Positions 19,601 to 26,746 of a DNA stretch of 64,000 nt are shown piece after piece. Position 1 is the first letter of the stretch. Each line of letters opens with the position of its first letter. A program made the translations under genes and the position numbers. The notes below the pieces were generated by a model. It searched no databases. It was not told the DNA's origin and saw only the letters and a program-made list of their open reading frames with translations. Source of the stretch: Gelidibacter gilvus (GTDB taxonomy: Bacteria; Bacteroidota; Bacteroidia; Flavobacteriales; Flavobacteriaceae); contig NZ_SDDZ01000001.1 of assembly GCF_004115975.1 (NCBI RefSeq), forward strand, positions 496,001-560,000, in the 5' to 3' direction.

Positions 19601-22210
19601 GCAGCAAAAATGTTGATTTTTGCGGCGGACAAAGAAAATTATAATGTTGGAGAAGCCGCTAAGATTACATTCCCTTCAGGAACTCAAGGCAGGGCCCTTG
19701 TCAGTATTGAAAATGGATCAGAAGTGTTGTCCTATAAATGGGTAGTGACCACGCAAGGTGAAACAACGGTCAATATACCAATTACGGCTGAAATGGCACC
19801 TAATGTCTTTGTCAATATCTCGTTATTGCAACCGCATGCCACAACGGCTAATGATTTACCAATTCGTTTATTCGGAGTGATTCCAATAATGGTTGAAAAC
19901 CCAGCCACCAAATTGAAACCGGAGATCAAGATGCCAGATGTACTTCAGCCAGAACAGGAGTTTGAAGTGGTAGTCAGTGAAAAGAATAAAAAATCAATGA
20001 CCTACACCATCGCCATTGTTGAAGAAGGTTTATTGGATCTCACCCGATTTAAAACGCCAAATGCGTGGGATGAGTTTTTTGCGCGGGAAGCACTGGGTGT
20101 AAAAACTTGGGATATTTTTGATGACGTTATTGGCGCTTATAGTGGTAGTATTGACCAGGTATTCGCCATTGGTGGTGATGCCAATGCCGCCGCAGGGAAA
20201 AATAAAAAAGCCAACCGATTTAAACCGGTGGTTACTTATTTAGGACCTTTTACTTTGGGTGCAGGCGAAAAGAAATCGCATAAAATAAAAATGCCGAACT
20301 ATATAGGTGCAGTCCGGGCGATGGTAGTTGCGGGAGATGCAAAAACTGAAGCTTATGGTAGTGTTGATAAATCGGTGCAGGTCAAAAAACCGTTGATGGT
20401 CTTAGCCAGCTTGCCAAGAAAATTGAGTCCGGGAGAAAAAGTAACCTTACCGGTTACGGTATTTGCCATGGAGTCTAAAGTTAAAAATGTCAACATTAGT
20501 TTAAAACTCAGTGATGGTATTTCAGTGGTTGGAGACAAATCGAAATCGCTCACTTTTGCAAGACCAGACGAGCAAATGGCTTATTTTGAATTGGATGTGA
20601 GTAAGGCAAAAGGCTTCAACACCGTAGAAGTGATTGCCAGCGGAAATGGCGAGAAATCAACTTACAAAGTAGAAATTGATGTTTACAATCCTAATCCAAT
20701 CAGCTCAAAAGCACTGGATGAAACTTTAGAAGCCAACGCTTCAAAAACGATGGATTTCTCAACCTTTGGTGAAATGGGCACCAATAGTGCAACCGTTGAG
20801 TTTTCGACTTTGCCGCCAATGGACTTCTCGAGGCGTTTACAGTTTTTAGTACAATATCCACATGGATGTTTGGAGCAAACCACTTCTGGGGTGTTTCCAC
20901 AATTATATTTGACCGATATCTTCGATTTGACCGCTCAGAAAAAGCAGGAAATCCAAAAGAATATTGAAAGCGGAATCAAGCGTTTGGGTAATTTCCAATT
21001 GGCATCAGGCGGGATGAGTTATTGGATGGGAGAAAACACCGCGAATGATTGGAGCACAACTTATACCGGTCATTTTATGTTGGAAGCGGAGAAGAAAGGA
21101 TTTGTATTGCCATTGACGTTCAAGAGCAATTGGTTACGCTACCAAAAACAGGCTGCGAGTGATTGGCGCCCGAGTTATAGAGCAGCAAATACTGATTTAG
21201 CCCAGGCTTATCGTCTTTACACATTGGCATTGGCGGGAAGTGCAGATTTGGCAGCCATGAACCGTTTGCGTGAGTTTAGCGAAATTTCCAATGAAGCCAA
21301 ATGGCGATTGGCTGCAGCCTATGCTTTGGCGGGACAGAAAGAAGCAAGCGATAATATTTCGAATACGGCAAATATCAACTTCTTGCCTCCACAAAATAAT
21401 TATTATACTTATGGTTCTGTAGATAGAAATAGAGCGATGGCTTTGGAAACGATGGTGTTGACCAAAAACCCTAAAATGCGCGAATTGGCACAAGATCTTG
21501 CCAAAGATCTTTCCAGTAATCGATGGATGAGTACGCAAACCACGGCTTATAGCTTATTGGCGATGGCAAAAATGGTAGAAGCAAACGGCGGAAAAGCATT
21601 AAAAGTGGAATATACGCTGAATGGCAAATCTGAAACCATCGATACAAAAAGTGCCATTGCACAACGTGAGTTGTTAGTAAAAGAGGGGAGCAATACATTT
21701 AGCATCAAAAACAATCAAGCCAATGTGGTCTATGTTCGCGTGTTGAATTCTGGTAAATTACCGCTTGGTGAGGAGATTTCAGAACAACGCGGGTTGAGTG
21801 TTTCTGTGGTTTATAAAGATTTAAATGGCAATGTTATAGACATCGGAAAGTTAAACCAAGGTCAGGATTTTGTTGCTGTGGTTAAAGTCAGTAATCTTAA
21901 AAATCAAGATGTAAATGATGTGGCGTTAACCCAAATCTTTCCATCTGGCTGGGAAATTGTCAATACACGTTTTACCGCTTTTGGAGATACCACCACAAGT
22001 CAGGCGAGATATACAGACATCAGGGATGATCGGGTAAACTTTTATTTCGACTTGCCACAACGTGGTAAAAATGACAGCAAGACATTTACCGTCATGTTGA
22101 ACGCATCTTATTTAGGCACTTATTATTTGCCAGGCGTTCAAGCGGAAGCCATGTATGATAATGAGTTTTTGGTAAGAAGTAAAGGAAGGTGGATTGAAGT
22201 GAATCAGTAA
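16619..22210 (+). CDS. Alpha-2-macroglobulin-like lipoprotein (YfhM/ECAM type)
   Basis: At 1863 residues this is a typical bacterial alpha-2-macroglobulin. A lipobox V-V-S-C (Cys22) anchors it to a membrane. Domains in order: N-terminal Ig-like region, MG domains, the macroglobulin core with G-E-R-G-V-W-R-P-G-D near residue 640, and the thioester domain with G-C-L-E-Q-T (thioester Cys1417 to Gln1420). Such proteins trap attacking proteases in the periplasm and work with PBP1C, which repairs the cell wall; pbpC is the next large gene here. Residues ~460-500 form an unusual Asp/Glu/Tyr/Asn-rich acidic stretch, probably a disordered insertion. Confidence 0.93.
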   Translation: MNCMSFKNSITCVFALLLVVSCKKDNISHEETDNLFKFRDYISYTTAGRVSIADPIIINLTNDVEGWTIGQEISEKIVTIKPHVQGKLLVENAHALVFKPDETLQPDTEYSVTVKLDKIYKNQPKEFGAYTFQFKTIAPNFNVVTNNLQSYSKNWQYLEAALKSADIIDIKDAKQLVEAWQKGKKLKLQWNESIEKSKVFEFKIDSINRLIEDSEILVKWNGKAIKADNSGENKFNIPGINNFTIVNVEVVQTPEQYLSLNFSDPLKKQQNFDGLVTIQNSKNPKFIVDGNVLKVYPSSKLVGDVLVDVFQGITNTDGFKLKKQFSQTISFEDLKPQVRLISNGTILPNSNELKFNFEAVNLKAVDVRIIKIFEDNVLQFLQDNQLQSNNESAIKRVGRRIAKQTITLQNDAVENDGKWKAYSIDLSKFFNADAGAIYRVELSIKKEYSMFNCDNYTNVENSDEDYYEDYYYNDYYEDNYNESTTEDDDLREEEYWDNLIYSYRNSNYNWNERNNPCHEAYYNENRVVAQNLLASNLGVIAKQGANNTYYFAVTNILDTSPEAGAMVRLFNFQQQEVGRATTDSEGLTTFKTNKFATFAIVTKGKNTTYIKLVDGNSLSLSKFDVSGNSLQRGLKGYIYGERGVWRPGDSLFLTFMLNDNDNKLPKGHPVKMEITDPSGKLIYKNISTENINNFYRFTVPTHSEHKTGSYSAKVSVGGASFYKSLRVETVKPNRLKIKIDFEDEVLSSNAPLNGTLDVKWLHGAPAKNLKAEIKAKFSTSYEGFKNYKDYEFVDPTRSFSSEEMNVFEGNLNEDGIANVNTSLNVGKNAPGLLNVQFLVRAFENGGDFSLDAFTKIYAPYNSFVGLKSPEGNRYGSFFTDENQTFDVVTVDAKGNPVKRENLEVKVYKIEWRWWWNSSYDNLSSYVSSNYHRSYLDKKVTTDANGKGRFTLNIPENERGRYLIRITDPKSGHATGRTAYFYKNWYQNSPDTDKEAAKMLIFAADKENYNVGEAAKITFPSGTQGRALVSIENGSEVLSYKWVVTTQGETTVNIPITAEMAPNVFVNISLLQPHATTANDLPIRLFGVIPIMVENPATKLKPEIKMPDVLQPEQEFEVVVSEKNKKSMTYTIAIVEEGLLDLTRFKTPNAWDEFFAREALGVKTWDIFDDVIGAYSGSIDQVFAIGGDANAAAGKNKKANRFKPVVTYLGPFTLGAGEKKSHKIKMPNYIGAVRAMVVAGDAKTEAYGSVDKSVQVKKPLMVLASLPRKLSPGEKVTLPVTVFAMESKVKNVNISLKLSDGISVVGDKSKSLTFARPDEQMAYFELDVSKAKGFNTVEVIASGNGEKSTYKVEIDVYNPNPISSKALDETLEANASKTMDFSTFGEMGTNSATVEFSTLPPMDFSRRLQFLVQYPHGCLEQTTSGVFPQLYLTDIFDLTAQKKQEIQKNIESGIKRLGNFQLASGGMSYWMGENTANDWSTTYTGHFMLEAEKKGFVLPLTFKSNWLRYQKQAASDWRPSYRAANTDLAQAYRLYTLALAGSADLAAMNRLREFSEISNEAKWRLAAAYALAGQKEASDNISNTANINFLPPQNNYYTYGSVDRNRAMALETMVLTKNPKMRELAQDLAKDLSSNRWMSTQTTAYSLLAMAKMVEANGGKALKVEYTLNGKSETIDTKSAIAQRELLVKEGSNTFSIKNNQANVVYVRVLNSGKLPLGEEISEQRGLSVSVVYKDLNGNVIDIGKLNQGQDFVAVVKVSNLKNQDVNDVALTQIFPSGWEIVNTRFTAFGDTTTSQARYTDIRDDRVNFYFDLPQRGKNDSKTFTVMLNASYLGTYYLPGVQAEAMYDNEFLVRSKGRWIEVNQ

Positions 22211-22211
22211 A

Positions 22212-22231
22212 ATTCCTGCGAAGGCAGGAAT
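22212..22231. repeat. Dispersed 20-bp palindromic repeat, copy 2
   Basis: ATTCCTGCGAAGGCAGGAAT differs in one loop base from copy 1 and starts two bases after the macroglobulin stop codon. It could act as a weak 3' hairpin. Confidence 0.75.
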
Positions 22232-22272
22232 CTTAGAGTTTTTAAGACCGAGGCATCGATACTGAAAATTTT

Positions 22273-22462
22273 AACCACCTCGCCTGCCTGTCGGGAGACA
22301 GGTCTTCATCCCGATGCTCGTGATGAAGCCACTGCTCCTTTTAAAGGAGGGGAAGTTAAGTTGGTGATAAAAATTTAAAAATATAGCCAAATCAAAAACT
22401 TCCTTCCCTTTTTAAGGGAAGGTGGCTTTAAGCTCAGAATAGAGCTTAAAGGCGGAAGGGTT
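22273..22462 (+). repeat. DUF559-associated structured repeat, unit 1
   Basis: Core of 190 bp from AACC to GGTT. It contains, in order, a CTTCATC/GATGAAG hairpin, a CTCC..GGAG palindrome, an AT-rich spacer, a CTTCCCTT/AAGGGAAG palindrome and a CTTTAAGCTC/GAGCTTAAAG-type hairpin. This unit is the most diverged: it has an extra CCTGCCTGTCGGGAGACAGG insertion near its left end. It is followed by the heme-protein gene rather than by the 55-bp linker. Confidence 0.8.
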
Positions 22463-22580
22463 TTCTATAAAAATAAAATATTTTAAACCCTATTGAATTA
22501 ATCATAAAAGTCCTGAGTATAATAATTTAGCTGCAATACAACAGCACCAAACAAATAGTAACCATTAAAAAGTAAGAAAC

Positions 22581-22820
22581 ATGTCAGAACAAGTTCAATT
22601 GGTACCTAACAACTCTTTAATCACAAAAACGCCAGAGGAAGGCAGGCAATTAGCTGTAAAAATGGCAAGACTCATCATAAAAGTCACTCAACCTGATGCT
22701 GCGGTGAGAGAAAAACTTCGTCCCGTATATGCTGAAGATGCGGCAATGCTAATTGCAATAGGACAAACGGTTGCTACAGAATTTGCGACTATTGCGGCTG
22801 CGAATAATTATTGGAGATAA
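22581..22820 (+). CDS. Hexameric tyrosine-coordinated heme protein (HTHP)
   Basis: This 79-residue protein is recognised by T-P-E-E-G-R-Q-L-A-V-K, K-V-T-Q-P-D-A-A-V-R and the C-terminal T-I-A-A-A-N-N-Y-W. They match the HTHP family first described from a marine alphaproteobacterium. Members form a hexameric ring with one heme per subunit, coordinated by a tyrosine, and show peroxidase/catalase-like activity. Tyr50 in R-P-V-Y-A-E-D is the likely heme ligand, by analogy. No signal peptide is present. The gene is bracketed by structured repeat units 1 and 2, so it may be a passenger or simply a repeat-flanked resident. Confidence 0.88.
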   Translation: MSEQVQLVPNNSLITKTPEEGRQLAVKMARLIIKVTQPDAAVREKLRPVYAEDAAMLIAIGQTVATEFATIAAANNYWR

Positions 22821-22853
22821 GTTTTTGATAAAGGACAATTTGCTCGTTTTAAC

Positions 22854-23024
22854 AACCACCTCGCCTTCATCCCGTTTTCTCTGGATGAAGCCACTCCTCC
22901 TTCAAAAGGAGGAGAGTTTAAGTTGGTGATAAAAATTTTAAAATTTAGCACAATCAAAAAATTCCTTCCCTTTTTAAGGGAAGGTGGCTTTAAGCTCGGG
23001 AGAGAGCTTAAAGACGGAAGGGTC
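22854..23024 (+). repeat. DUF559-associated structured repeat, unit 2
   Basis: Same element order as the other units but only 171 bp because of a shorter middle spacer, and it ends GGTC in place of GGTT. It is followed by a 55-bp linker (23025-23079) whose bases from 23040 are identical to the 3' end of the DUF559 gene. Confidence 0.85.
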
Positions 23025-23039
23025 GTTTTTTCTAAATTA

Positions 23040-23089
23040 TGCTAAATGAAATAAAACTTAGTTTTAAATGATAGTTATTAACCACCTCG
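23040..23089 (+). repeat. DUF559 3'-end relic plus unit start, copy a
   Basis: This 50-bp stretch equals 23613-23662, which covers the last ten codons and stop of the DUF559 gene, 8 bp of spacer and the AACCACCTCG start of the next unit. Identical stretches begin at 23857 and 24099. The matching upstream part of the gene is absent at all three places. Confidence 0.85.
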
Positions 23090-23265
23090 ACTTCATCTCG
23101 ATTCTCGTGATGAAGCCACTCCTCCTTCAAAAGGAGGTGAATTTGAGCTTATCATTCGATTTAAAATTGCGCTACTTTTTTAAATAGTGCCGAATCAAAA
23201 ACTTCCTTCCCTTTTTAAGGGAAGGTGGCTTTAAGCTCCGGAGAGAGCTTCAAGACGGAAGGGTT
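23080..23265 (+). repeat. DUF559-associated structured repeat, unit 3
   Basis: A 186-bp AACC..GGTT core. This unit immediately precedes the intact DUF559 gene, whose ATG is 20 bp beyond the GGTT end. The CTCCTCCTTcAAAAGGAGG and CTTCCCTT/AAGGGAAG palindromes are intact. Confidence 0.85.
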
Positions 23266-23284
23266 TATATTGAGTTAATTAAAA

Positions 23285-23644
23285 ATGAAATCAAACATCC
23301 ATAATCGAAAGTATCTTATAGAGCGGAGGAAAGAACTCAGAAACAATTCCACCTCTGCTGAAGCGACTTTATGGAAGTCACTACAAAGAAATCAATTGGA
23401 CGGACGAAAATTTAGAAGGCAACACAGTATTGAAAATTATATCGTCGATTTTTATTGTGCCTCTGAAAAATTAGTAATTGAATTGGATGGCGCGGTTCAT
23501 TTGGATTTTGCAATTAGTAATTATGATTATGAGAGGGAACAAAAATTGAAATCCCTTGGATTTAAGGTGCTGAGGTTTGAAAACAGGGAGGTTTTTGAAA
23601 ATTTAGAAAGCTTGCTAAATGAAATAAAACTTAGTTTTAAATGA
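23285..23644 (+). CDS. DUF559 family (Vsr/PD-(D/E)XK-like) endonuclease
   Basis: This 119-residue protein is full length for DUF559 and belongs to the Vsr-like restriction-endonuclease fold. The active-site residues are visible: Asp55 in I-V-D-F-Y-C, Glu66 and Asp68 in V-I-E-L-D-G, and His72. The basic N-terminal R-R-K-E-L-R and R-K-F-R-R-Q-H stretches suit DNA contact. There is no fused partner domain. The gene sits precisely between structured units 3 and 4. Its last ten codons recur as gene-less relics at 23040, 23857 and 24099. It may be the enzyme that moves or copies the repeats, by analogy to RAYT/REP pairs; this is inference. Confidence 0.85.
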   Translation: MKSNIHNRKYLIERRKELRNNSTSAEATLWKSLQRNQLDGRKFRRQHSIENYIVDFYCASEKLVIELDGAVHLDFAISNYDYEREQKLKSLGFKVLRFENREVFENLESLLNEIKLSFK

Positions 23645-23652
23645 TAGTTATT

Positions 23653-23841
23653 AACCACCTCGTCTTCATCCCGTTTTCTCGGGATGAAGCCACTCCTCCT
23701 TAAAAAGGAGGAGAAGTTTAGATTATGATTAGATTTGAAATTAGGCGTACATTTTTAAATAAGGTCGAATCAAAAAAATTCCTTCCCTTTTTAAGGGAAG
23801 GTGGCTTTAAGCTTCGAAGAGTATTTAAAGGCGGAAAGGTT
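23653..23841 (+). repeat. DUF559-associated structured repeat, unit 4
   Basis: A 189-bp AACC..GGTT core directly after the DUF559 stop codon. It is followed by the 55-bp linker 23842-23896 that contains a copy of the DUF559 3' end. Confidence 0.85.
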
Positions 23842-23856
23842 GTTTTTTCTAAATTA

Positions 23857-23906
23857 TGCTAAATGAAATAAAACTTAGTTTTAAATGATAGTTATTAACC
23901 ACCTCG
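23857..23906 (+). repeat. DUF559 3'-end relic plus unit start, copy b
   Basis: Identical to 23613-23662. It carries the coding tail for L-N-E-I-K-L-S-F-K and its stop, without the rest of the gene. Confidence 0.85.
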
Positions 23907-24083
23907 ACTTCATCTCGATTCTCGTGATGAAGCCACTCCTCCTTTAAAAGGAGGAGAATTTGAGCTTATTATTCTATTTAAAATTGCGCATACGTTTTTA
24001 AATAATGCCGAATCAAAAAATTCCTTCCCTTTTCAAGGGAAGGTGGCTTTAAGCTCCGGAGAAAGCTTTAAGGCGGAAGGGTT
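23897..24083 (+). repeat. DUF559-associated structured repeat, unit 5
   Basis: A 187-bp core that is nearly identical to unit 6. Unit 5 plus linker forms a 242-bp tandem period with the next copy, implying a recent duplication. Confidence 0.85.
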
Positions 24084-24098
24084 GTTTTTTCTAAATTA

Positions 24099-24148
24099 TG
24101 CTAAATGAAATAAAACTTAGTTTTAAATGATAGTTATTAACCACCTCG
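24099..24148 (+). repeat. DUF559 3'-end relic plus unit start, copy c
   Basis: Third gene-less copy of the 50-bp stretch, exactly 242 bp after copy b. Confidence 0.85.
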
Positions 24149-24326
24149 ACTTCATCTCGATTCTCGTGATGAAGCCACTCCTCCTTTAAAAGGAGGAGAA
24201 TTTGAGCTTATTATTCTATTTAAAATTGCGCATACGTTTTTAAATAATGCCGAATCAAAAAACTTCCTTCCCTTTTTAAGGGAAGGTGGCTTTAAGCTCC
24301 GGAGAGAGCTTAAAGACGGAAGGGTT
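24139..24326 (+). repeat. DUF559-associated structured repeat, unit 6
   Basis: Last unit of the array, a 188-bp AACC..GGTT core. It is not followed by the 55-bp linker; the sequence runs into the intergenic region of the pbpC gene. Confidence 0.85.
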
Positions 24327-24354
24327 ATGTATCAATTTAAATATAAAACAAATT

Positions 24355-24389
24355 AAGACCTCACAGGTTTTTAAAACCTGTGAGGTCTT
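24355..24389. repeat. AAGACCTCACAGG palindrome before pbpC
   Basis: A perfect 17-bp-arm inverted repeat (arms AAGACCTCACAGGTTTT and its complement, single central T) ends 5 bp before the pbpC ATG. A related palindrome, AGACCTGTCAGG type, lies at 44506-44539. The stem would place the start codon right after a strong hairpin. Confidence 0.8.
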
Positions 24390-24394
24390 TAACC

Positions 24395-26746
24395 ATGAAC
24401 AAACTACTAAGATATATTAAACGCCACAAATTCAAATCGGCCATTATTTTTATAGTAGTGGTGGTCTATTATTTTTGTTTGCCACAACAATTGTTCAAAG
24501 ATCCAACGGCAACCGTTATTACAAGCTCTAATAACGAACTTTTAGGAGCTATGATTGCCGAAGATGGCCAATGGCGATTTCCTCAAAACGACACCGTTCC
24601 AGAAAAATTCAAAGTCTGTATTCTTCAATTTGAAGATGCCTATTTTTATCGACATCCTGGATTCAATCCAGTGTCTATTTTTAAAGCTTTAAGGCAAAAC
24701 TTAAGTTCGGGAGGTGTGAAAAGAGGCGGCAGTACCATCACACAACAAGTCATCCGTTTATCCCGAAAAGGTCAATCCAGAACCTATTTTGAGAAAATTA
24801 AGGAAATTGTTTTCGCCACTCGATTGGAATTTAGAGCATCCAAAGAGAAAATCCTTTCCTATTACAGTAGCAATGCGCCTTTTGGAGGAAATGTCGTGGG
24901 ATTGGATGCAGCATCATGGCGTTATTTTAATAGAGATGCCTCACAATTATCTTGGGCAGAAAGCGCCACTTTAGCCGTTTTGCCAAATGCACCAAGTTTA
25001 ATCTATCCCGGAAAAAACCAAGAGCAACTGTTCAAAAAACGCAATCGGTTATTGGAGAAATTGATGACACAGGGCGTTATTGACACGTTGACCTATCAAT
25101 TGTCCATAGCTGAAGGATTGCCTCAAAAACCGTATCCTTTGCCACAAATTGCACCGCATTTACTTCAAAAAGTGACTCAAACACATTTTGGAAAATATGT
25201 CCAGACCACGGTCAAAAAGCCGATTCAGGAGCAAGTCAACAGAATTGTATATAACCACTATACCAACCTCAAACAGAACGAAATTTACAATGCAGCGGTT
25301 CTGGTATTGGATGTCAAAACTCGTAAAGTTTTGGCGTATGTTGGCAATACGCCCACAGATAAGGAACACGAAAAAGACGTTGATGTCATTGACAAACCGA
25401 GAAGTACAGGAAGTATTTTAAAACCATTTTTATATGCCGCCATGTTGGATGCCGGAGATCTCTTGCCCAACACTTTGGTGGCGGATGTGCCCACGCAATA
25501 CGGAAGTTACAATCCTGAGAATTATGACAAACAATACGATGGCGCGGTTCCTGCAAGTCGTGCCTTGTCACGTTCGTTGAATGTGCCGTCTGTAAGGATG
25601 TTGCAGGAATTTGGATTGGATCGGTTTCATCATTATTTAAAAGCATTGCACTTAAAGGACTTACAATACAATGCCAATCATTATGGATTGTCGCTCATTC
25701 TTGGTGGTGCTGAAAGTAATCTATGGGATTTATGCAAAAGCTACGCATCCTTATCATCAACTCTAAATCATTTTAACGAGACCTCCAGCGAATACTTCAG
25801 CAATGAATTCTGTGAACCTACATATTTAGAAGATAAAACAATTGACTTTGGCAAAAGAACATCTGATAAAACCTTATTTGATGCGGCTTCAATTTATTTG
25901 ACATTTGAAAGTTTGAAAGAAGTGAACCGTCCGGAAGGCAATGAAAATTGGGAGTTTTACGACAGCTCCAAACAGATTGCCTGGAAAACAGGAACGAGTT
26001 TCGGATTCAGGGATGCTTGGGCGATCGGTACCACTAAAGATTATGTCGTAGGGGTTTGGGTTGGAAATGCTGATGGCGAAGGCAGACCAGGTTTGGTTGG
26101 GGTGCAAACTGCAGCGCCAATTTTATTTGATGTGTTTGATGTTTTGCCCAAAAGTGATTGGTTTTCCAAGCCTTTCGATGAAATGCAGGAAGTCGATATT
26201 TGCTCACAATCGGGACATCGGGCATCTCCAAATTGTGAAAACAAAGAACCAAAATACATTCAGATTGCTGGACTTAAAACGCCGCCTTGTCCTTATCATA
26301 TTTTAGTGCATTTGGATAAAAATGAGCAATACCAAGTGAATTCTTCTTGTGAAGATTTAAATAATATGGTGCATAAATCATGGTTTGTCCTGCCACCACT
26401 TATGGAATATTATTACAAAGCGCAGAATCCATTTTACAAACCATTGCCGCCATTTAGAGAGGATTGTTTTGGGGAGAGCACTGTTGTTATGGAATTCATT
26501 TATCCGAAGGAAAACAACACCATTTTTTTACCTAAGGATTTTGACGGACAAACCAACGATTTGATATTGAAAGTGGCGCATTCCAAACCCGAAACTTTGG
26601 TGTTTTGGTATCTGGATGAGCGTTATTTAGGGAGCACCACAGACATTCATGAATTCGCCATGCAGCCAAAAAACGGGAAACATATGATTACGGTCGTGGA
26701 CGCATTTGGCAATGAAAGTAAGCGCTGGATTGAAATTTCAGAATAA
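24395..26746 (+). CDS. pbpC: Penicillin-binding protein 1C
   Basis: The ATG at 24395 gives 783 residues; an upstream GTG lies within a palindrome. After one N-terminal membrane helix (about 15-33) comes a GT51 glycosyltransferase domain (E-D-A-Y-F-Y-R-H near residue 75, G-G-S-T-I-T-Q-Q-V-I). The transpeptidase domain has S340-I-L-K343, S-L-N and K-T-G-T. The C-terminal ~90 residues form the BiPBP_C domain. PBP1C polymerises peptidoglycan and pairs functionally and genetically with YfhM-type macroglobulins, the next gene upstream here. Strand and order keep the pairing, but the repeat array separates them by 2.2 kb. Confidence 0.95.
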   Translation: MNKLLRYIKRHKFKSAIIFIVVVVYYFCLPQQLFKDPTATVITSSNNELLGAMIAEDGQWRFPQNDTVPEKFKVCILQFEDAYFYRHPGFNPVSIFKALRQNLSSGGVKRGGSTITQQVIRLSRKGQSRTYFEKIKEIVFATRLEFRASKEKILSYYSSNAPFGGNVVGLDAASWRYFNRDASQLSWAESATLAVLPNAPSLIYPGKNQEQLFKKRNRLLEKLMTQGVIDTLTYQLSIAEGLPQKPYPLPQIAPHLLQKVTQTHFGKYVQTTVKKPIQEQVNRIVYNHYTNLKQNEIYNAAVLVLDVKTRKVLAYVGNTPTDKEHEKDVDVIDKPRSTGSILKPFLYAAMLDAGDLLPNTLVADVPTQYGSYNPENYDKQYDGAVPASRALSRSLNVPSVRMLQEFGLDRFHHYLKALHLKDLQYNANHYGLSLILGGAESNLWDLCKSYASLSSTLNHFNETSSEYFSNEFCEPTYLEDKTIDFGKRTSDKTLFDAASIYLTFESLKEVNRPEGNENWEFYDSSKQIAWKTGTSFGFRDAWAIGTTKDYVVGVWVGNADGEGRPGLVGVQTAAPILFDVFDVLPKSDWFSKPFDEMQEVDICSQSGHRASPNCENKEPKYIQIAGLKTPPCPYHILVHLDKNEQYQVNSSCEDLNNMVHKSWFVLPPLMEYYYKAQNPFYKPLPPFREDCFGESTVVMEFIYPKENNTIFLPKDFDGQTNDLILKVAHSKPETLVFWYLDERYLGSTTDIHEFAMQPKNGKHMITVVDAFGNESKRWIEISE

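Follow-up and report, generated by a model that had tools for sequence, protein, structure and literature searches.

A DUF559 nuclease gene and structured palindromic repeats in Gelidibacter gilvus: a probable homing-like nuclease-repeat element

Introduction

Two kinds of repetitive extragenic palindromic (REP) sequences are the closest described systems to the locus presented here. In a REPtron, one gene encoding a REP-associated tyrosine transposase (RAYT) is flanked by short GTAG-tagged palindromic repeats that also occur by themselves, frequently in inverted pairs, as described in the accessible part of Di Nocera et al. (2013; PMC3733652). The same part of that source describes CGTC-tagged REPs, including the Rickettsia palindromic elements, with CCA tails, stems of 8-9 bp, inverted dimers, copies inside genes and no dedicated transposase; a loop of 4-5 nt and complementary AT at stem positions 1-2 also count among the traits of this REP class. 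The accessible part of a 2024 review also recalls in-frame Rickettsia palindromic elements. Homing endonucleases of the EDxHD (Vsr) fold, such as I-Bth0305I, represent a third point of comparison. Miniature inverted-repeat transposable elements (MITEs) and solo long terminal repeats (LTRs) exemplify how a unit that bears a gene can give rise to gene-deleted and solo forms. Here we analyze an array of structured repeats that encloses a DUF559 nuclease gene in a stretch of 64,000 nucleotides of Gelidibacter gilvus (contig NZ_SDDZ01000001.1, positions 496,001 to 560,000), hereafter called the window. We consider it probable that this gene and its repeats constitute a selfish nuclease-repeat element that is homing-like and analogous to RAYT/REP, with a nuclease of the Vsr/I-Bth0305I type.

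The original prediction for this locus had drawn a parallel to RAYT/REP pairs, which is apt in layout. However, the flanked gene encodes a DUF559 protein of Vsr-type fold and not an HUH Y1 transposase, the hairpins near DUF559 that have a tag and a CCA tail include CGTC-tagged but no GTAG-tagged ones, and the unit is also found in frame within other genes, so that it is not a RAYT/REP member but another variant of nuclease-repeat elements. The CGTC end, the CCA tail, the 9-bp stem, the inverted dimers and the in-gene copies are shared with CGTC-tagged REPs, as far as these are described in the part of PMC3733652 cited above, whereas the hairpin found here adjoins an additional C/T-G/A palindrome and a G-rich tag and has a loop of 6 nt in the modules counted. 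As with homing endonucleases, occupied and empty alleles exist at a fixed site in a conserved gene; unlike them, the DUF559 unit stays in an open frame with no intron or intein seen by reading, and it has palindromic ends and tandem intergenic arrays. Gene-deleted and solo derivatives recall MITEs and solo LTRs, but the repeats are direct cores made of inverted halves. Our literature search, which mostly covered papers available without subscription, found no link of DUF559 to repeats.

Results

DUF559 genes recur beside pyrimidine-rich palindromes

The link between DUF559 and repeats, originally proposed from this locus alone, was found again in other genomes and phyla. A PF04480 (DUF559) hit is present in 72 of 149 genomes of the same family, Vsr-like partial hits included, and 86 loci, three of them from G. 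gilvus itself and three being weak hits, make up the family set. A strict palindrome (7-nt all-pyrimidine arm with at least three C, loop of 2-9 nt, exact complement) lies no more than 400 nt from the domain in 57 of the 86 loci, and on both sides in 42. A database scan with one genome per species yielded 565 confirmed loci; among the best 80, some of which repeat family-set loci, a palindrome was detected within 400 nt in 74 and on both sides in 43, and the corresponding dinucleotide-shuffled regions contained one in 0.7% of cases. Five of the six misses were read: four have imperfect copies and the fifth is cut by a contig end. PF04480 hits were also detected in 37 of 120 sampled genomes of Pseudomonadota; among 55 hits of at least 75 bits, those accompanied by a locus, 24 in number, were examined. 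Each of these 24 loci has a palindrome no more than 400 nt away (14 on both sides), and a total of only 6 palindromes lie at distances above 700 nt. In the family and database loci the palindrome rate is 3.6-4.0 per kb in the nearest 200-250 nt versus 0-0.11 per kb beyond 1 kb. Vsr-type control loci, taken mostly from the same genomes, had a strict palindrome in 1 of 22 cases. Finally, a palindrome together with its pairing tag was found near the domain in 56 of 104 loci, in none of the 104 after mononucleotide shuffling, and in 2 of 66 distant real regions. The distance profiles, the shuffles and the Vsr-type controls rule out chance proximity, and both the association and the layout of the unit are solid. 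DUF559 ranges from Bacteroidota to Pseudomonadota and candidate phyla, and palindromes are close by in 3 of 7 DUF559 loci on viral contigs.

The reverse comparison gave a consistent picture for the module type of the window. The pattern GGGARGGTGNN{6,36}ACGGARGGGT, which represents this one type only, occurs in 9 of the 149 family genomes (its backward control matches once), all of them among the 72 PF04480-positive genomes and none among the 77 negative ones (Fisher p = 0.001, a value that ignores kinship). Eight of these nine genomes carry a DUF559 hit free of stops; in the ninth, G013, it is broken.

The array in the window

All six predicted direct cores were re-found at their positions, with the intact DUF559 gene between cores 3 and 4 (Table 1). 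Their AACC starts stood, as did the GGTT ends in exact or close form, except for core 2, which ends in GGGTCG; the predicted length of 171-190 bp was re-measured as about 171-191 bp. The claim that the gene-less linkers carry the tail of the DUF559 gene also proved correct: 75-nt stretches at 23029, 23846 and 24088 are mutually identical and 89% identical to 23602-23676, which holds the 3' end of the gene, and the last DUF559 codons were fuzzy-matched in all three linkers and in the gene itself. The gene-bearing period is 573 bp as predicted, but the gene-less periods are 226, 244 and 242 bp and not all of 242-244 bp, the first being shorter because core 2 is shorter. The original prediction overlooked the gene for a hexameric tyrosine-coordinated haem protein (HTHP) that lies in the 581 bp from the start of core 1 to that of core 2, as well as the composition of the core from two inverted hairpin modules, the lone modules elsewhere in the genome and the in-frame DUF559 units.

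Table 1. Coordinates of the array components (window numbering)
Feature	Position	Strand	Basis or remark
Core 1 (L module + R module)	22273..22463	+	starts AACC
HTHP gene (possible passenger), flanked by cores 1 and 2	22581..22820	+	PF11534 E=5.5e-36
Core 2	22854..23025	+	starts AACC, end = GGGTCG
Gene-less linker with DUF559 3' remnant	23026..23079	+	repeat identity + tail match
Core 3	23080..23266	+	starts AACC
DUF559 gene, intact (119 aa), flanked by cores 3 and 4	23285..23644	+	PF04480 E=1.3e-35
Core 4	23653..23842	+	starts AACC
Gene-less linker with DUF559 3' remnant	23843..23896	+	repeat identity + tail match
Core 5	23897..24084	+	starts AACC
Gene-less linker with DUF559 3' remnant	24085..24138	+	repeat identity + tail match
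Core 6: AACCACCTCG[hairpin]CCAC[CTCCTCC..GGAGGAG] ... [CCTTCCC..GGGAAGG]TGG[hairpin]GACGGAAGGGTT	24139..24326	+	

Module structure

Each core consists of two inverted half-modules, each with a palindrome, a hairpin and a tag ending in GGTT. The right half reads CCTTCCC-TT..AA-GGGAAGG, TGG, hairpin and GACGGAAGGGTT, and the left half has the same layout reversed, i.e., AACCACCTCG-hairpin-CCAC-CTCCTCC..GGAGGAG. As judged by reading, pairing is possible between the G-rich tag and the left arm of the palindrome, and thus there are two possible folds. Core 6 as single-stranded DNA folds at -41.5 kcal/mol versus -18.6 +/- 3.1 kcal/mol for dinucleotide shuffles, none of 200 being as low.

The hairpin has a stem of 9 bp and a loop of 6 nt, with T:A at positions 1-2 in 19 of 19 distinct modules from two genomes. 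In the 171 cells of these modules the nine pairs are formed in 99.4%, with 38 two-sided changes, one one-sided change and one unpaired cell. The covariation score was reached by none of 500 shuffles, the structure having been derived from the same 19 sequences on which it was scored. Two-sided changes nearly without intermediates suggest arm-to-arm correction or copying between modules. Furthermore, 66 of 74 spacers of at least 14 nt fold below -2 kcal/mol. When the flanks of 244 hairpins near DUF559 were left unconstrained, GTGG (CCAC) ranked first (29 of 488 flanks) and CGTC fourth (16). With the CCA tail imposed, CGTC was the commonest tetranucleotide before the stem (35 near DUF559 and 0 far), GTAG was found 0 times and all tags amounted to 174, in counts where some loci fall in two of the sets.

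A solo half-module was also observed upstream of metH (L302-L310), present, in part decayed, in 6 of 9 congeners and absent in 3. At this site the hairpin arms vary between species and the flanking palindrome stays; in G276 only the hairpin is missing. At the metH start of G271 (L306) the first part of the gene is apparently duplicated, with repeated AATTCCTGCGAAGGCAGGAATCT-like palindromes between the two parts.

The same site in ten congeneric genomes

The array is located between an alpha-2-macroglobulin-like (A2M) gene and a pbpC-like gene, and the state of this site differs among the ten congeneric genomes. G273, G013 and G270 have one core without a gene, G276 has half a core, G272 has the HTHP gene followed by one core, and G275 has an R module, a broken gene and a core. 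Gelidibacter salicanalis, whose DUF559 protein at this site is 88% identical to that of the window, shows the order core-gene-core-gene-core; G271 has two genes and the HTHP gene between cores, with an assembly gap; and G274 starts, at a contig edge, within a gene tail that is followed by a core. The window genome (G000), with six cores, one gene and three tails, lies within this range. Since the states extend from half a core to two-gene arrays, the gene-less units of the window are most simply explained as deletions of gene-bearing units, as originally proposed, and the relatives with two tandem genes (G. salicanalis and G271) support this view. The single-core state could be either a remnant, as a solo LTR is, or the starting state. 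Empty sites, which the original prediction had raised for sister strains, were not seen between A2M and pbpC in any of the ten genomes, but the leucyl-tRNA synthetase (LeuRS) site described below is empty in most congeners.

Regarding the HTHP gene, it is placed between two cores also in G271, and in G272 a core is found on one side only; it is a possible passenger gene. A separate inverted repeat, AGACCTCACAGG..CCTGTGAGGTCT, precedes pbpC at 24350-24392 of the window and recurs with changes in those congeners whose sequence was inspected.

Units inside other genes

In the family set, DUF559 with palindromic ends is found in frame in LeuRS, MetH and RecG, at the start of the HemD and IlvA frames and at the end of HisD, the host genes being named from their translations without profile search. 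One congener has an in-frame unit in IleRS, and a unit in Pseudomonadota probably lies in frame in an HsdM-like gene. LeuRS is occupied in 2 of 9 congeners (G000 and G270), and the other seven have a short variable loop, all in frame. By reading, the LeuRS insert leaves the frame open and consists of DUF559 and short ends, which leaves too little space for a splicing domain. Two LeuRS copies (L108 and L111) have a weak DUF559 (61 and 49 bits) without palindromes, as would a decayed unit. The empty loop of G272 (L260) reads VIANEAQQSQR, which we take to resemble the peptide of another common repeat; the LeuRS loop may thus accept several kinds of small repeats.

A FastTree phylogeny of 193 domains grouped the copies of RecG (4; support 0.992), MetH (3; 0.999) and HemD (6; 0.80) into single clades, and the 12 LeuRS copies enclose those of RecG and IleRS with weak support (0.597). 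The tree fits nuclease lineages that are bound to their sites and jump rarely, as in homing endonucleases.

The nuclease

The window DUF559 protein matches PF04480 with 122 bits (gathering cut-off 20.6), and its AlphaFold2 model has a mean pLDDT of 89.1. The nearest solved folds in Foldseek are 3hrl, a DUF559-like protein from Neisseria, and then the homing endonuclease I-Bth0305I (3r3p; E=3.1e-5, TMt 0.74; profile E=5.1e-6). Mitoribosomal proteins and PvuRts1I follow, with E. coli Vsr in eighth place (E 0.036). Positions T, E, W, Q, D-F and E-x-D-G do not vary across 21 relatives, and D55, E66 and D68 of the window protein are conserved. The ratio of nonsynonymous to synonymous substitution rates (dN/dS) is 0.05-0.09 in 4 of 5 comparisons of the window protein with relatives, where defined, and 0.04-0.18 in 12 of 15 pairs among six copies at the site, where defined and with several dS above 1; therefore, the protein is under purifying selection. 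A role as a defence system was discarded, since PADLOC gave only weak matches to HEase (E 2e-4) and DpdF (E 5e-3).

Other copies in the G. gilvus genome

A core query matched 37 places in the genome, six of them in the window array, including several tandem arrays and several single halves. PF04480 has four hits: the window gene, the in-frame LeuRS copy with short palindromic ends of another type, a gene on contig C14 whose flanking repeats differ but share the layout, and a hit covering only profile positions 66-108 of 109, probably a true Vsr. Modules also form tandem arrays at L013, L018 and L019 (C3, C42 and C1), where the period is roughly 200-340 bp and no PF04480 hit is located. Identity of the modules with the repeat type CGTCATTGC was also considered and rejected as weak, because this repeat is only weakly tied to DUF559 (6 near, 6 far).

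The DUF559 gene of Escherichia coli

The DUF559 gene of E. coli K-12 is ycjD (1351407-1351760; L311), present in 3365 of 5426 E. coli genomes. Its 3' end carries a CCCTCTCCC-type stretch, and another C/G-rich palindrome precedes fabI. E. coli was discarded as an empty-site test: two strains without ycjD have a resistance-nodulation-division (RND) efflux operon next to fabI, and thus they offer no clean empty site.

Discussion

The unit comprises a single-domain DUF559 nuclease of the Vsr/EDxHD fold beside or between short structured modules. In a module, a C/T-G/A palindrome is followed by a short spacer and often by a variable hairpin, which has a CGTC-type tag at one side and CCA at the other; the last part is a G-rich tag, ending in GGTT in this genus, that can pair with the left arm of the palindrome. 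We propose that the nuclease may nick or cut at a module or at an allele lacking the element, and host repair may then copy module and gene into the break by homing or gene conversion, so that the nuclease, and not general recombination, would drive the copying. Recombination between direct cores would account for the tandem arrays, the solo cores and the units that have lost the gene. The element would take its homing form as in-frame units in tolerant loops of essential genes, and its tandem form as intergenic arrays.

Several observations weigh against this proposal. We infer both cleavage and movement from sequence comparison, and tandem arrays and gene loss require only general recombination. 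All ten congeneric genomes keep at least half a core between A2M and pbpC, and hence the array can be explained by gain and loss through recombination between direct repeats, with no need for transposition. In the empty alleles the LeuRS loop varies, so that the ends of the unit and a target duplication are not definable there, and the LeuRS clade of the tree has a support of just 0.597. The strict detector fails in 29 of the 86 family loci, in three of which the DUF559 hit itself is weak or decayed; relaxing it recovers 11 of these 29 (background 6/77), and most of 16 misses read by eye show, in our judgement, mixed-base palindromes such as GTCCCCTCAAGGGGAC. Exact CGTC-hairpin-CCA was found in only 20 of 161 loci. 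Flank-repeat similarity tracks nuclease similarity across 100 standalone loci (Mantel r = 0.197, 0/999), but the correlation is weak and common descent confounds it. In E. coli the repeat of ycjD seems to persist in strains without the gene, judging from the matches listed, in which rows with only the fabI piece still comprise 2-6 places and another row has a match to the 41-nt repeat alone.

The observation that most of the 37 core matches of the G. gilvus genome are not beside a DUF559 gene, together with the HTHP gene placed between cores, could mean that the modules are REP-like sequences moved in trans by another enzyme, either a RAYT/IS200 Y1 transposase or the replication machinery, and that the DUF559 gene tolerates or prefers flanks of this kind. 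Y1_Tnp proteins are in fact encoded in 7 of 9 congeners, but G275 and G276 have modules and DUF559 without a Y1_Tnp hit, which weakens a RAYT as the driver, and such modules accompany DUF559 genes in unrelated phyla as well; we regard this explanation as unlikely. Nor do we favor an origin of the array by tandem duplication and internal deletion alone, through unequal crossing-over or slippage, with a domesticated DUF559 acting in Vsr-like repair and palindromes that are only terminators or fragile sites causing duplications. It agrees with the tandem direct cores and with the site between A2M and pbpC, which is never devoid of a core or half-core. Moreover, a Caulobacter DUF559 protein is treated as a predicted Vsr-like mismatch-repair nuclease in the accessible part of a 2026 paper (PMC12907096), and such repair is a real alternative function. 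However, it leaves unexplained the units that lie within seven host genes or at their ends, the patchy LeuRS occupancy and a layout common to several phyla, while Vsr-type genes, mostly of the same genomes, are devoid of such flanks; this origin also appears improbable.

Type III toxin-antitoxin loci provide the comparison for a further explanation, in which the repeats are transcribed and their hairpins regulate or neutralize the nuclease. Hairpins kept by pairing and tandem repeats beside a nuclease gene would suit it. However, only 1 of the 171 cells is a one-sided change of the G-U type, and therefore DNA pairing suits the data better; the window region 21500-25200 has no Rfam match at gathering scores, many copies are far from any DUF559 gene, and the in-frame units are open for translation, all of which makes an RNA partner very improbable. 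The homing-like nuclease-repeat element remains, in our opinion, the probable explanation.

A broader proposal, which we advance tentatively as a real possibility, is that DUF559 nucleases are the enzymes of bacteria-wide mobile repeats with C-rich palindromes and CGTC-tagged hairpins, including in-gene CGTC elements, that spread by nuclease-driven copying and live in essential proteins without splicing. DUF559 may supply the enzyme whose absence was stated for CGTC-tagged REPs, which, if true, would answer the question raised in 2013 in the part of PMC3733652 considered here. The function of DUF559 is unsettled, and a regular repeat partner offers a concrete candidate substrate. If the proposal holds, a Vsr-type nuclease would be added to the bacterial ways of moving short palindromes, and an extra nuclease domain in LeuRS, RecG, MetH or HemD would mark the protein as a host of selfish DNA. 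This small and widespread bacterial nuclease, gained and lost between close relatives, may thus represent an overlooked kind of selfish DNA.

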